A stretch of DNA of 33,395 nucleotides from a virus: the IMG/VR virus record IMGVR_UViG_3300048033_000170, positions 1 through 33,395 of that record, one strand, 5' to 3'. The notes under the pieces are model-generated. The model saw nothing but the letters and a program-made list of their open reading frames with translations. It did not search any database and was not told where the DNA came from. The translations under genes were made by a program, and so were the position numbers. Positions 1 through 33,395 of this stretch are shown one piece after another. Every line of letters begins with the position of its first letter. Position 1 is the stretch's first letter.

Positions 1-2
1 TA

Positions 3-395
3 CAAGAAGCGCAAAGATTAGCTGGTTTAGGATTTTCTGAAGAAGCAATTTGCCAGGCGTGTTTAGGTTGTAGTCCAGATACATTATTAAGAAGAAAGAA
101 AGAATTTCCAGAAATTGCGGAATATATAAGGCGTGGAAAAATGAAAAGCATTGAAGAAGTATCTAACGCTCTTTATAGGTCCGCTATTGGTTTACATGGT
201 AAAGAGCCATCAGTAAGCGCGCAGATCTTCTTCTTAAAGAATAAAGGCAAGCAAGCTGGCAATGATTGGGCGGACATTCAACAAGTAGAAACAAATATAA
301 ACCTTAAAGACGCACTCACGCACGCAAGCGCAAGAATAATAAACGGCGAAACAATAGAACATGAAACGCTAAACTTAAAAGATGCTAAAGACTAA
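3..395 (+). CDS. terS: Terminase small subunit, 5'-truncated second copy
   Basis: The reading frame is open from base 3 and enters the window already inside the gene. It corresponds to residues 23-152 of the complete copy at 32900-33358 and differs from it by one amino acid (Ile in place of Val in the RSA(I/V)GLHG stretch). The ATG at 141 is internal and not a start. TerS recognises the packaging site and loads the large subunit on concatemeric DNA. The fragment is best read as the wrap-around end of one circular genome, not as a second gene, although a real tandem duplication is not excluded. Confidence 0.9.
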   Translation, partial: QEAQRLAGLGFSEEAICQACLGCSPDTLLRRKKEFPEIAEYIRRGKMKSIEEVSNALYRSAIGLHGKEPSVSAQIFFLKNKGKQAGNDWADIQQVETNINLKDALTHASARIINGETIEHETLNLKDAKD

Positions 396-404
396 CGCCA
401 GCAA

Positions 405-422
405 GCACGCGAGCAAGCGTGC
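405..422. other. Perfect GC-rich hairpin after terS
   Basis: The arms GCACGC (405-410) and GCGTGC (417-422) form a perfect 6-bp stem with a 6-base loop, 10 bases after the terS stop. No T-tract follows, so it is not a standard intrinsic terminator. Confidence 0.5.
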
Positions 423-450
423 ATATATTAGCAATGCATTAAAAGTTTGT

Positions 451-26291: not shown

Positions 26292-26673
26292 TTTTGATGG
26301 TAAAAACAGGCCCACTCTTTGCGGATATTGTAAAAATCCGAGTGGGCCACTACTTTACAAAGACGGAGACTATTGGTTAGGTGCGTGCAGTATGGATCAT
26401 TTAAAAAAGATTAAAGAAGGTAAAAGGTTACCAAACAAAGCACAACTCAATGACGAAGGTGTTGAATACTCCATAGCACAAACCAAAGATATATATTTAG
26501 AACTATCCAGAGAAGAAGATAATCAAGCATTACATAAATGGGATAGGGATAAAAGAAAAAGGGTGTTTACTTCTATAGTAAGAGAATATTTAAACTGGGC
26601 TAACGCTGTAGCTCAACAAGACGATGAAAGGGCAAAACATGGATCTGACGAAATACTTTCCAGAAGGAAATAA
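26275..26673 (+). CDS. Zinc-ribbon hypothetical protein overlapping the SSB tail
   Basis: The 132-residue protein has Cys16-x2-Cys19 and Cys38-x3-His42, a zinc-ribbon arrangement near its start, then a basic helical C-terminal half (HKWDRDKRKRVFTSIVREYL). The ATG lies inside the last codons of the SSB-like gene with GAGG directly adjacent, so initiation probably uses ribosomes from that gene. It precedes the Toprim-helicase, whose start lies inside its end. A single-stranded DNA or primase accessory role is possible. Confidence 0.75.
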   Translation: MKHHFNFDGKNRPTLCGYCKNPSGPLLYKDGDYWLGACSMDHLKKIKEGKRLPNKAQLNDEGVEYSIAQTKDIYLELSREEDNQALHKWDRDKRKRVFTSIVREYLNWANAVAQQDDERAKHGSDEILSRRK

Positions 26674-28459
26674 TTTAGAACAAAATAAACCAAAAGACAC
26701 AAGCGATTTAATAAACGAAATGCAATCACAAGGGTTGCAAATAAATCATTTACAAATTACAGGCGACATAGTAAGAGTGCCAGTCAATGAATTAGCTGGT
26801 ATAAAAGCTGACTCTGGCGGTCAGAAGTCTGGTTATTATGTAGTCAATGAACTCAACGGTAATTACTTCGCAACCTTTGGTAATTGGAAAACAGGCTTCG
26901 AGGGTAAATGGTCAAGCGTGAATCATCAAGCTATGACTGTTCAAGAAAGAGACAATCTACAATGTCAACTGCAAGAGGCTAAGCAAAGGGCTGATGAAAC
27001 TAAAAAACAAAGGCATAACGAAGTGGCCAAAAAAGTTGAACGCTGGTTCGACTCTTATCCGAATGTTGTTGAACATGACTATCTCACAAATAAAAAGGTT
27101 AAAAATTATGGTTTAAAGCAATACCAGGATATGTTGGTTTGCGGTGTGTATTCTACAACAGGAAACATTCGTTCTCTACAGTTTATTAGTAAAAATGGTG
27201 ATAAAAGATTTGCTTCTGATTCAGAAATAAAAGGAAACATATTTCTTATTGGTGCAGACATAAAAGACATTCCCAAATTAGATAAAATTATATTAGCAGA
27301 GGGTTATTCAACTTCTGCAACTATTTATGAAGCAACCCAGATTCCTGTAGCTTGCGTATTTTCTGCCAATTTCGTCATGGCAGTAGCCCTTCAGATACGC
27401 AAGCTTTCAGGTGCTAGAATTGTTGTTGCGCTTGATAATGATGAAAGCGGAGTTGGAGAGAAGAAGGCGCAAGAGTGCGTGCAGGCGGTGATTAATTCAT
27501 GCGTGCGTTTGCCGAGTGAACACGGAGACTTTAACGATTTATATTTACGACATGGTTTAGAAAAAGTAAAAGCTGAACTTGTAGAACATAAGTTAGGCAT
27601 ACAAAAATATGCAATTCGTAATCTTATAGGTAAACCAGAACCACAAAAGTTTTTAGTTGAAGGTCTTATTCCTATTGGTAAACCAGGTATTCTTGCCGCA
27701 GTGGGTGGTGTGGGTAAGTCGCTAAGTGTCATACAACTTGCACTTTCTATTTGTTGTGGTGGTAGATGGTGGGGAAAAGATATTGTAGAGCGTGGTAATA
27801 GTGTCATATTCTGCGCGGAAGATGATCTAATGGAAATACATAGGCGACTTGACTTGCTCGACCCTAAGGGCAAGCGATTTAACTCCTCTTATGAAGTCTA
27901 TGTATTTCCTGTCCCAGAACAAAAAGAACCAATGATACTGTTAAGAGAAGAGGGTATCACCCCTATAGCACAAGAGTTAGTAGAAGAATTAAAAGCTATA
28001 CCAGATTTAAAGTTAGTATGTTTCGACCCATTACAAGCATTTACCACAGGCAATGTATCAAGCAGTAATGAGGCTGGCCAACTCTGGGGAAGTTATTGCG
28101 CTAACATATCAGCTCGTCTTGGTTGTGCAACGCTTACGATTCATCATCTTAATAAAGGTGCTTTAGCTAATGATAGTGATGATGCTATGAGTCATAGAGC
28201 AGAAATTCGTGGCGCAAGCAGTATCACAGATTCGGTTAGGTGGGCGATTGCTATGTGGCTTGCGAGCGTGGAGGATTGTGAAAGGATATGCGAGGAACAG
28301 CGAGTAACATACGAGCGTATGAGCGTGGTAAAAGCCGCTTTAGTCAAATCTAATTCTGGCAATGTTGACTATACTACCAAGACATTATTTAGAAAGGACG
28401 GAGTGTTAGAGCCATTAGAAGAATTACAAAATCCTATGAATTTATATGACCAATTTTAA
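26639..28459 (+). CDS. Toprim domain-RepA-like helicase (primase-helicase-like)
   Basis: The start at 26639 is preceded by AAAGGG and preferred over an in-frame ATG at 26624. The 606-residue protein has an N-terminal region with a Glu/Lys/Gln-rich helix, then a Toprim domain (LAEGYSTSAT near residue 219; ALDNDESGVG near 264). A RepA-like AAA_25 ATPase follows: GGVGKS near 356, LVCFDPLQAF near 459 and TIHHLNKG near 500. It would unwind and probably prime at the origin. A zinc finger like that of T7 gp4 is not seen. Confidence 0.85.
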   Translation: MDLTKYFPEGNNLEQNKPKDTSDLINEMQSQGLQINHLQITGDIVRVPVNELAGIKADSGGQKSGYYVVNELNGNYFATFGNWKTGFEGKWSSVNHQAMTVQERDNLQCQLQEAKQRADETKKQRHNEVAKKVERWFDSYPNVVEHDYLTNKKVKNYGLKQYQDMLVCGVYSTTGNIRSLQFISKNGDKRFASDSEIKGNIFLIGADIKDIPKLDKIILAEGYSTSATIYEATQIPVACVFSANFVMAVALQIRKLSGARIVVALDNDESGVGEKKAQECVQAVINSCVRLPSEHGDFNDLYLRHGLEKVKAELVEHKLGIQKYAIRNLIGKPEPQKFLVEGLIPIGKPGILAAVGGVGKSLSVIQLALSICCGGRWWGKDIVERGNSVIFCAEDDLMEIHRRLDLLDPKGKRFNSSYEVYVFPVPEQKEPMILLREEGITPIAQELVEELKAIPDLKLVCFDPLQAFTTGNVSSSNEAGQLWGSYCANISARLGCATLTIHHLNKGALANDSDDAMSHRAEIRGASSITDSVRWAIAMWLASVEDCERICEEQRVTYERMSVVKAALVKSNSGNVDYTTKTLFRKDGVLEPLEELQNPMNLYDQF

Positions 28460-28471
28460 AAGGAGAAAACT

Positions 28472-28630
28472 ATGAACTGTTGGCATTGTGGAACAAAAGT
28501 AATATGGGGTGGCGACCATGATATTGGAGATGAGAACGAAGAATTTGATATCGTCACGAACTTATCATGCCCAAAGTGTGAGGCATATATTGAGGTCTAT
28601 TTACCAAAAATTAAAGAAAATGACGACTGA
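28472..28630 (+). CDS. 52-residue zinc-ribbon protein
   Basis: AAAAGGAG lies six bases before the ATG. The protein starts MNCWHCGTKVIWGG and contains Cys3-x2-Cys6 and later CPKC at residues 33-36, a four-cysteine zinc ribbon, with an acidic centre. Such proteins often accompany phage replication or transcription genes. Its 3' end overlaps the next ORF by 11 bases. The function is unknown. Confidence 0.8.
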   Translation: MNCWHCGTKVIWGGDHDIGDENEEFDIVTNLSCPKCEAYIEVYLPKIKENDD

Positions 28631-28832
28631 TTTGAATAAAATCGTTGGGAACTTTAGGGACATACTAGGGAATCTAAGGGACATACTAGGGAACGAGAGG
28701 GTCAACACTAGGGAAGGAGATGCCCATATATCCATACATATACATATGTATAAGAGAGCAATCCCCTTTAGGGGGATTGACTCTCTGGAAAGCAAGCACG
28801 CAGGAAGGACAAAAGGAAGGCACGCATTATGA
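28620..28832 (+). CDS. Small protein encoded through the iteron array
   Basis: The 70-residue frame begins in the end of the zinc-ribbon gene and ends ATGA-overlapped with the next gene. Residues 11-28 are a tandem peptide (GNFRDILGNLRDILGNER), the translation of the 21-base DNA repeats at 28647-28714; the rest is basic and His-rich. A longer frame from 28509 exists, but it would lie within the zinc-ribbon gene. I think DNA function, not the peptide, shaped the repeats. It may be translated mainly to pass ribosomes on. Confidence 0.45.
   Translation: MTTDLNKIVGNFRDILGNLRDILGNERVNTREGDAHISIHIHMYKRAIPFRGIDSLESKHAGRTKGRHAL
28647..28714. repeat. Iteron-like array: phased GGGA repeats, candidate origin
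   Basis: GGGA (or GGGT) begins at 28647, 28657, 28668, 28678, 28689, 28699 and 28711. The spacings of 10, 11, 10, 11, 10 and 12 keep the motifs on one face of the helix. Two longer units of 21 bases (28651-28671 and 28672-28692) agree at 18 positions, and a third at 28693-28714 is degenerate. It lies just after the Toprim-helicase and before a winged-helix gene, which fits a replication-initiator binding site. Confidence 0.65.
28739..28752. other. Perfect AT-rich 14-bp palindrome
   Basis: TATACATATGTATA is a perfect palindrome in an AT-rich block (about 28725-28753) that separates the GGGA array from the hairpin. It may be a DNA-unwinding element or a binding site. Confidence 0.5.
28753..28786. 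other. Strong hairpin of the candidate origin
   Basis: Arms 28753-28766 and 28772-28786 pair over 14 bp with one bulged A at 28780 and a five-base loop. The top is the CCCC/GGGG pair. No T-tract follows on either strand, so this is unlikely to be an intrinsic terminator. A primase or primosome loading hairpin in the origin fits the context. Confidence 0.6.
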
Positions 28833-29269
28833 GAAGATTCGGACAAATAGACAAAAACTATTGGTGGATTACAGCGCATGCGAGCGAGCGTGGAGAGAGA
28901 ACTGCATTAGTTCCAATCACGCTTGCGCGCAAGGAAGGAGATTTCTCGCGTGTGCGTCAATTAATCTGGCATTGGTATCGTAGCGAAGTTGCAGGGAATG
29001 AGGAGTTATCAATGACAGCTCGATTTGTTGGTTGGGCATTGTGCGAGCGTTGGCGGTATGAAACTTGGTCATCGCATGATGCGATTAGTTATTATGCAAA
29101 GATGACAGCTGTAAATAGGAAAAGCGTGGGTAAAGCCATTGCAGAACTTAGCGAGGCAGGATTGATATGGATTGTTTTAGAAGGAGAGCCGAAGCGGTTA
29201 AAGAAATCTCAGAGCGGTGGGAAGAAACATTTTATTCTGGTTGGTTTAGCTGACTTGGTGCGTGAGTGA
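28829..29269 (+). CDS. Winged-helix protein, candidate origin-binding initiator
   Basis: The 146-residue protein starts ATGA-overlapped with the gene before it, with AAGGAAGG as ribosome binding site. Residues about 68-116 form a winged-helix-like block: MTARFVGWALCERW, then SSHDAISYYAKMTA and NRKSVGKAIAELSEAGLI. This resembles replication-initiator N-terminal domains (phage O-like or DnaD-like) and single-domain transcription regulators. It is adjacent to the iteron array, so it is the best candidate to bind it. The coding region is unusually rich in GCGAGCG and GCGTG words. Confidence 0.65.
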   Translation: MRRFGQIDKNYWWITAHASERGERTALVPITLARKEGDFSRVRQLIWHWYRSEVAGNEELSMTARFVGWALCERWRYETWSSHDAISYYAKMTAVNRKSVGKAIAELSEAGLIWIVLEGEPKRLKKSQSGGKKHFILVGLADLVRE

Positions 29270-29425
29270 GCGTGAGGAGAGCTAGACATACCTGGAGAGG
29301 AGTGAAAGGGGGATCATGGTCTATAGATACGCCTAGGCTCTGTAGATTCATTATAAGGGTAAAGTGGTCAGTTACCTAGAGTTTTATAAAAGAATTGACC
29401 AGCGTGCGTGTGGAGGCGTGAGAGA
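29270..29425. other. Intergenic region upstream of the methyltransferase
   Basis: A 156-base gap without a credible gene. It contains an inverted repeat TGGTCA (29365-29370)/TGACCA (29396-29401), a GATC site at 29312-29315 and GCGTG-rich flanks. An operator or promoter for the methyltransferase gene is possible, but no -35/-10 pair is convincing. Confidence 0.4.
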
Positions 29426-29860
29426 ATGAAGAATAGAAATTTAATACACAGCGACAATTGGGAGACACCAAAAGAACTATACGATGAGTTAGATGCGGAG
29501 TTTAATTTTGACTTTGATCCTTGTCCTATTTGTTATGGTGAGATAACTCCAGATAAAGATGGGTTACTTATTGATTGGGGTGAGCGTAATTTTGTTAATC
29601 CGCCTTACAGTAGAAAGTTAAAAGATGCCTTTGTCGTGCGTGCGGTTGAGATGGCCAAGCGTGGTAAGTTATGCGTTTGTCTTTTGCCTGTTAGTACAAG
29701 TACAGTTTTATTTCACGATGTGATACAGCCTAATGCAAAAGAAATTCGTTTCTTGCGTGGTAGGGTTAAATTTATTGGTGTTAATACCTTTGGCGAGCGT
29801 GTTACCAATAAACCTGGTATGCACGATTCAATGATAGTGGTTTTTGATGGTAGAGGGTGA
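29426..29860 (+). CDS. dam: Phage DNA N6-adenine methyltransferase (Dam-type)
   Basis: The 144-residue protein matches the short phage Dam family (PF05869-type): HSDNWETPKELYDELDAEF, then FDFDPCP, and NFVNPPYSR with the catalytic NPPY motif near residue 55, followed by a CLLPVSTSTVLFHD strand and a KFIGVNTFGERV region. It methylates adenine in DNA, probably protecting the phage or marking DNA near the origin. The start at 29426 follows GGAGG nine bases upstream; a GTG at 29408 is an alternative. It is the last rightward early gene. Confidence 0.93.
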   Translation: MKNRNLIHSDNWETPKELYDELDAEFNFDFDPCPICYGEITPDKDGLLIDWGERNFVNPPYSRKLKDAFVVRAVEMAKRGKLCVCLLPVSTSTVLFHDVIQPNAKEIRFLRGRVKFIGVNTFGERVTNKPGMHDSMIVVFDGRG

Positions 29861-32899: not shown

Positions 32900-33358
32900 A
32901 TGAGTGAAATCAAAAAAAGAAAAAAACCAGGGCCAAAAAAGATAATGTTTACTGAAGAACAACTACAAGAAGCGCAAAGATTAGCTGGTTTAGGATTTTC
33001 TGAAGAAGCAATTTGCCAGGCGTGTTTGGGTTGTAGTCCAGATACATTATTAAGAAGAAAGAAAGAATTTCCAGAAATTGCGGAATATATAAGGCGTGGA
33101 AAAATGAAAAGCATTGAAGAAGTATCTAACGCTCTTTATAGATCAGCTGTTGGTTTACATGGTAAAGAGCCATCAGTAAGCGCTCAGATTTTCTTCTTAA
33201 AGAATAAAGGCAAACAAGCTGGTAATGATTGGGCGGACATTCAACAAGTAGAAACAAATATAAATCTAAAAGACGCACTCACGCACGCAAGCGCAAGAAT
33301 AATAAACGGCGAAACAATAGAACATGAAACGCTAAACTTAAAAGATGCTAAAGACTAA
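32900..33358 (+). CDS. terS: Terminase small subunit (complete copy)
   Basis: The 152-residue protein starts with a basic Lys/Pro-rich N-terminus (MSEIKKRKKPGPKK), followed by a helix-turn-helix-like region, TEEQLQEAQRLAGLGFSEEA then ICQACLGCSPDTLLRRKK. A helical central domain and a C-terminal oligomerisation-type stretch follow (DALTHASARIINGETIE). It recognises the packaging site and regulates TerL. No Shine-Dalgarno sequence precedes the ATG. The gene's end runs into the repeat, and the terL gene begins on the other side of the circle at base 637. Confidence 0.92.
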   Translation: MSEIKKRKKPGPKKIMFTEEQLQEAQRLAGLGFSEEAICQACLGCSPDTLLRRKKEFPEIAEYIRRGKMKSIEEVSNALYRSAVGLHGKEPSVSAQIFFLKNKGKQAGNDWADIQQVETNINLKDALTHASARIINGETIEHETLNLKDAKD

Positions 33359-33395
33359 CGCCAGCAAGCACGCGAGCAAGCGTGCATATATTAGC
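32964..33395. repeat. Right copy of imperfect terminal direct repeat
   Basis: These 432 bases correspond to 1-432 at 10 differences and include residue 23 onward of terS and the first 37 bases after its stop. The sequence therefore continues at base 433 of the window when closed into a circle. Confidence 0.95.

Follow-up and report, generated by a model that had tools for sequence, protein, structure and literature searches.

How does a phage that seems to bring no DNA polymerase with it begin to copy its genome, and at what place on that genome does the copying begin? For podoviruses without a DNA polymerase, the start of replication is an open question, stated as such for the abundant MPP-C cyanopodoviruses (PMC9860041). 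The window analysed here—the whole stretch of DNA, at its full length of 33,395 nucleotides—belongs to another marine phage without a recognised polymerase: among its scanned open reading frames (ORFs), all those of more than 400 amino acids (aa) included, we recognised none, which gives good support to what an earlier note on this DNA had said. The two ends of the window (1-432 and 32964-33395) carry a repeat of 432 nt that is 97.7% identical and not exact; the repeat suggests a complete genome, circularly permuted or terminally redundant, and its inexactness suggests that this complete genome was assembled from variants.

We have tried to focus on one short piece of the window, 28647-28786, and to ask what it is for. 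Our answer is that it very probably acts as an origin (a function that we infer) in an uncultured marine phage with no recognisable DNA polymerase. We also think it likely that this replication origin and the winged-helix gene behind it form an exchangeable module of origin plus initiator, working with a helicase-primase and with the polymerase of the host. In other words, the window may offer a complete candidate set of origin, initiator and helicase, and with it more than 100 natural variants. The facts that carry this reading are a conserved anatomy, paired changes in both hairpins (the AT dyad and the GC hairpin), a constant iteron period under changing sequence, the coupling of iteron class to the winged-helix protein and not to the helicase, and the homology of the helicase to RSF1010 RepA.

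What does the piece consist of? At its left end, GGG begins at 28647, 28657, 28668, 28678, 28689, 28699 and 28711, and the resulting spacings of 10, 11, 10, 11, 10 and 12 bases reproduce exactly the seven GGGA/GGGT motifs of the earlier note. In 300 dinucleotide shuffles of the whole window, no chain of GGG[AT] at a spacing of 10-12 had more than three members, and in 5,000 local shuffles the longest had at most four, as against seven in the window; the GGGA/GGGT array at 28647-28720 cannot be chance. Tandem Repeats Finder also ranks it as the top tandem array in the window (28656-28720, period 21, 3 copies, score 77), and its core has no second copy there, with up to 3 mismatches allowed. We describe it as an iteron array of about 3.5 copies on the + strand, made of units of 21 bp (28647-28667), 21 bp (28668-28688) and 22 bp (28689-28710) and a partial unit (28711-28720), with GGGA or GGGT at each half-unit. 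We do not claim a DnaA box, for which the consensus is TTATCCACA; ATATCCATA is two positions off, and the difference is larger in the ATATCCGTA clade.

Relatives were collected from IMG/VR and GTDB in searches that used the winged-helix protein, the helicase, and profiles of both; these yielded 117 distinct cassettes and 94 distinct winged-helix proteins (41-100% identical to that of the window). The order of parts is the same in all 117: repeat array, ATATCC, AT-rich inverted repeat, GC hairpin, and the ATG of the winged-helix gene. That array, AT palindrome and hairpin make up one unit, as proposed before, is well supported. Two features of an iteron origin are there, namely, tandem repeats in the range of about 17-22 bp and an AT-rich dyad beside the iterons (117/117). 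A separate pattern scan found the winged-helix gene downstream in 29/30 dyad-bearing matches, the remaining one lying at a contig end; when the scan was rechecked, 44/74 matches had neither the dyad nor the winged-helix gene, and these were taken as chance.

The strongest self-match period is 21 in 38 arrays and 22 in 59 (97/97 distinct arrays), with shuffled arrays scattered. At 10 and 11, the mean self-match signal across arrays is barely above that of shuffles, and the 10.5-bp sub-repeat therefore belongs mainly to the clade of the window. That is, the helical phasing on which the earlier note had built is present in the window but is largely its own clade's sub-repeat, the family-wide period being 21 or 22 bp; relatives hold this period constant while their sequences vary, and the spacing of 10-11 bases stays mostly within the clade. 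On this comparison, the conserved unit is the 21-22-bp iteron and not GGGA every 10.5 bp.

To the right of the array, on the + strand, lies CATATATCCAT (28725-28735), the ATATCC core of which (28728-28733) is found in 117/117 distinct cassettes; it is possibly the start of the unwinding region or a site for a host factor. Directly abutting ATATCC is an AT-rich inverted repeat, ATACATAT-AC-ATATGTAT (28734-28751), which is probably the DNA unwinding element, or dyad. The 14-bp AT palindrome placed earlier at 28739-28752 exists, but in a shifted register: what relatives conserve is 28734-28751, with its register kept. A Watson-Crick-perfect dyad 0-3 nt past ATATCC occurs in every relative (117/117), spelled with 27 arm sequences, and in 48/48 distinct real cores vs 1% of shuffled ones.

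Next comes a GC-rich hairpin (28753-28786, + strand), with stems of 8 bp and 6 bp and one unpaired A on the 3' side, which is the 14-bp hairpin with a single bulge that had been reported. Folded as DNA, it reaches -13.3 kcal/mol (z -6.8), and dyad and hairpin fold side by side as single-stranded DNA (z -6.6 for the pair, + strand). A GC hairpin is present in 117/117 cassettes, with 22 different inner stems and, in 95/117, a single unpaired 3' base. When arms are exchanged between relatives, pairing falls from 100% to 40% in the dyad and to 53% in the inner stem; the stems had been picked for perfect pairing, so that part of the 100% follows from how they were selected, and the useful control is the cross-relative value. 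Across the relatives compared, hairpin arms and repeat sequences diverge, and pairing, period and order are kept. We regard the hairpin as a candidate single-strand initiation (priming) site. It had been described as primosome-like, but nothing points to a PriA-type site; the nearest functional parallel is the ssi hairpin of RSF1010. An intrinsic terminator was tried as another identity for the hairpin and rejected (there is no T run on the + strand and only a weak match on the minus strand). A known RNA family was rejected as well, no Rfam match having risen above chance.

Might the array exist for the sake of a peptide? A 70-aa ORF (GNFRDILGNLRDILGN; 28620-28832, + strand) spans it and is not a conserved gene. 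No open + frame exists in 30/90 distinct arrays, a proportion close to that of shuffles, and the array comes after a methyltransferase gene in some relatives and after a zinc-ribbon gene or the stop codon of the helicase in others. Because the 22-bp period breaks the frame, 30/90 arrays lack an open one, and the upstream context varies, we read the ORF as a by-product of the 21-bp repeat staying in frame. A coding explanation for the repeats was rejected, as frames stay open no more often than by chance and what lies upstream is not constant from relative to relative. The idea that selection acts on the DNA and not on the small peptide is well supported, with the ORF not conserved and most arrays having a period of 22.

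The genes around the array had been named correctly: a Toprim-helicase and a zinc ribbon before it and a winged-helix gene after it. The first (26624-28459, + strand) encodes a Toprim primase (Toprim_3, E=1.1e-10) fused to a RepA-type helicase (AAA_25, E=1.8e-30), and we propose that its product is the replicative helicase-primase. The zinc ribbon gene occupies 28472-28630. The third (28829-29269, + strand) encodes a winged-helix protein of 146 aa (Pfam HTH_36), which we propose as the initiator that binds the iterons. Matches of its family to PHROGs fall in replication initiation families (14/33, 6/33 and 4/33) and in an unnamed family (1/33), so that replication initiation is the only stated function among them. 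Its AlphaFold model (mean pLDDT 70.7) is confident only in the core and low in the N-terminal third, and structure comparison against the PDB with Foldseek gave generic MarR-like and winged-helix folds, none with E <= 0.001.

Which of the two proteins, then, sets the specificity of the iterons? After accounting for the helicase, iteron similarity has a partial correlation of 0.63 with the winged-helix protein; the values for the helicase are -0.08 (N-terminus) and 0.29 (C-terminal part). Mapped onto the winged-helix tree, the seven iteron classes require 6 changes, the fewest possible; mapped onto the helicase tree, they require 9. Nature has also made some of the swaps that one might wish to make at the bench. 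In L157 and L209, helicases that are 99/98% identical stand beside unrelated iterons and winged-helix proteins of 65% identity; in L194 and L141, the helicases are essentially identical, the winged-helix proteins 57% identical, and the iterons different; and in L294 and L297, identical winged-helix proteins go with similar iterons and helicase C-terminal parts that are 72% identical. Because near-identical helicases occur beside unrelated iterons, our firm conclusion from these comparisons is that iteron specificity is not set by the helicase. The winged-helix gene is always downstream of the cassette, and iteron class tracks its tree, but the array adjoins this gene, and linkage or co-inheritance alone could yield such coupling. 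The natural swaps exclude the helicase as the source of specificity; for iteron binding by the winged-helix protein they are no proof. The larger claim of the earlier note, an origin with a phage-encoded initiator, is well supported by the anatomy and by the coupling of iterons and presumed initiator.

How might such an origin work? A phmmer search of the PDB with the helicase-primase gave a single sequence match, RSF1010 RepA (1g8y, E=1.6e-11). In RSF1010, RepC is the iteron-binding protein, RepA the helicase that unwinds, and RepB' the primase, which acts 3' of the exposed ssi stem-loops (PMC4234260); host proteins extend the primers (PMC4234260; PMC4434180). In the sequence of an IncQ1 plasmid, 22-bp iterons are followed by a GC stretch, then by AATCCATCCAT, by the AT dyad GATTATCTAAGAATAATC, and finally by the hairpin AGCGCCC-TTGTG-GGGCGCT. 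The phage cassette is like this oriV in having about 3.5 direct iterons (22-bp period in RSF1010) followed by an AT-rich dyad segment and a hairpin, and like the replicon in having a homologous hexameric helicase and encoding no polymerase. It is unlike in several respects. The primase of the phage, a Toprim domain, forms one protein with the helicase, whereas RSF1010 has the separate archaeo-eukaryotic RepB', for which there was no match among the scanned window ORFs; the phage initiator would be a single winged-helix protein of 146 aa that shows no homology to RepC (hhalign probability 0.1; Pfam HTH_36, not RepC); RSF1010 has two hairpins, ssiA on one strand and ssiB on the other, whereas the phage has one GC hairpin; and the cassette, which sits on a phage genome, has no GC stretch separating its iterons from its AT region. 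With no RepC or RepB' homologue found and only one hairpin, the best reading by analogy is that of an RSF1010-like iteron origin outside the RSF1010 family. As a separate matter, in the IncQ1 oriV (L336:3048-3105) the AATCCATCCAT before the AT dyad resembles ATATCCAT of the phage, a likeness that could be chance or a shared constraint.

The steps can then be imagined as follows. The winged-helix protein would line up along the helix, bound to one 21-22-bp iteron beside the next, and would destabilise the segment of ATATCC and AT dyad. The Toprim/RepA-type helicase-primase would, by homology, be loaded at that segment, unwind the DNA, and expose the bulged hairpin, where a primer would be laid; the Toprim domain would stand in for RepB', and the winged-helix protein for RepC. 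Since no phage polymerase is recognised, the primer would be extended by a host polymerase. Tentatively, and with more doubt than belief, we go one step further and suggest that priming may be encoded in shape: in a family of tailed dsDNA phages, a freely exchangeable winged-helix/iteron module would open the DNA, the Toprim-RepA fusion would then read a hairpin conserved in form (its single 3' bulge) and not in sequence, and RSF1010-like strand displacement with a host polymerase would follow. A switch in GC skew at 28.7 kb, which the origin had been expected to show, is not seen; after detrending, the cumulative skew is lowest at 24.1 kb and highest at 30.05 kb, where the gene orientation changes. 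Confounded by gene direction, the skew is uninformative here and lends the origin no support.

Since the cassette doubles as the 5' leader of the winged-helix gene, it may serve regulation beside or instead of initiation. The winged-helix protein would in that case be a regulator that binds its own operator, and dyad and hairpin would be parts of a leader RNA that controls translation. Indeed, the cassette always lies directly 5' of this gene and ends in a ribosome-binding site; dyad and hairpin would form in the mRNA too; the non-Watson-Crick pairs near the hairpin base (five G.T and zero A.C, of 324 pairs) fit folding of the + strand; and the Foldseek matches in the PDB are MarR-type regulators. 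We nevertheless find autoregulation unlikely. Promoter-like sites are not above chance (3 found vs 2.6 expected), no T-run follows the + strand hairpin, wobble pairs are rare, and the would-be operator core has no second copy in the window, whereas the period, the AT dyad, the ssi-like hairpin, the RepA-type helicase, and the PHROG replication-initiation matches favour an origin.

Even granting an origin, the repeats could be read by the helicase-primase itself, as in phage P4 alpha, with the winged-helix protein as an accessory. Cultured phages with related helicases, which carry hexamer arrays with no recognisable winged-helix gene adjoining, would fit this arrangement, but the near-identical helicases beside unrelated iterons (L157/L209 and L194/L141) do not, nor do iteron classes that fail to track the helicase tree, and we hold it to be very improbable. 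Centromere-like sites, too, can carry phased arrays to which small DNA-binding proteins bind, and one might imagine a site for partition or DNA packaging in place of an origin. No ParA-like gene was noticed among the scanned window ORFs, however, the terminase is 5 kb off round the circle, and dyad, hairpin and helicase-primase fit replication; to this possibility we give the least credence of all.

The origin that we favour also has something in common with better-known ones. In P4 alpha, all activities reside in one protein and the helicase is of a different class, whereas the winged helix of the window phage is a separate protein and its helicase is RepA-type. In lambda, P recruits host DnaB, the iterons lie inside the O gene, and there is no conserved hairpin; the window phage carries its own helicase-primase, and its array lies outside the winged-helix ORF. 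Shared with P4 alpha are a Toprim primase, a helicase, and (as proposed here) winged-helix binding at origin repeats (PMC4234260), and shared with lambda are iterons beside an AT-rich tract and an initiator encoded at the origin (PMC7466680). A further parallel is the RepA/origin pair of the PLE satellites of Vibrio cholerae, in which the DNA-binding domain of the initiator and the iterons covary and are swapped as a module, and which escape an origin-cutting nuclease (PMC8263062). PLE, unlike the window phage, is a satellite of ICP1, with three semi-palindromic iterons of about 30 bp, a RepA_N initiator, and no hairpin described (PMC8263062). In the phage family, the specificity of the presumed origin likewise turns over fast and is exchanged by module, with the period and the shape of the hairpin fixed. 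Because blastn and tblastn searches with the region and the winged-helix protein found zero matches in 50,697 named phage records, this protein could serve as a marker of the family. Two relatives sit in metagenome-assembled genomes, one of Candidatus Pelagibacter and one of Crocinitomicaceae, and no host is claimed because both could be binning errors.

Hexamer arrays also stand right after the helicase gene, with no recognisable winged-helix gene next to them, in four cultured phages with distantly related helicases: Alteromonas phage XX1924, Idiomarinaceae phage 1N2-2, Salicola phage CGphi29 and Rhizobium phage RHph_Y3_1 (L337:5882-6214, L338:5837-6107, L339:5822-6069 and L341:5426-5737). 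The hexamers (GGTTCA, GGTACA, GGGACA and GGGAAC, in both orientations) number 6-12 copies per ~250-330 bases vs 2-6 in the remaining 6-9 kb. A repeat array behind a Toprim/RepA-type helicase may be a general origin design.

A few smaller things were seen along the way. Between helicase and cassette lies a slot for variable cargo, which may be empty or hold a zinc-ribbon gene, an N4/N6 methyltransferase gene or a C5 cytosine methyltransferase gene (examples are window 28460-28640, L083:4640-5770 and L010:3557-4825), and the distance from helicase stop to winged-helix start runs from 165 to 1767 nt across relatives. The winged-helix frame of L049 (5001-5434) seems shifted N-terminally, through either a sequencing error or a broken gene. 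In the window, the winged-helix gene and its flanks (28786-29440) contain GAGAG, GAGCG and GCGTG at 10-21 times their frequency in the rest of the window, and the G skew at four-fold sites there is strongly positive (16 G, 2 C) in comparison with other genes.
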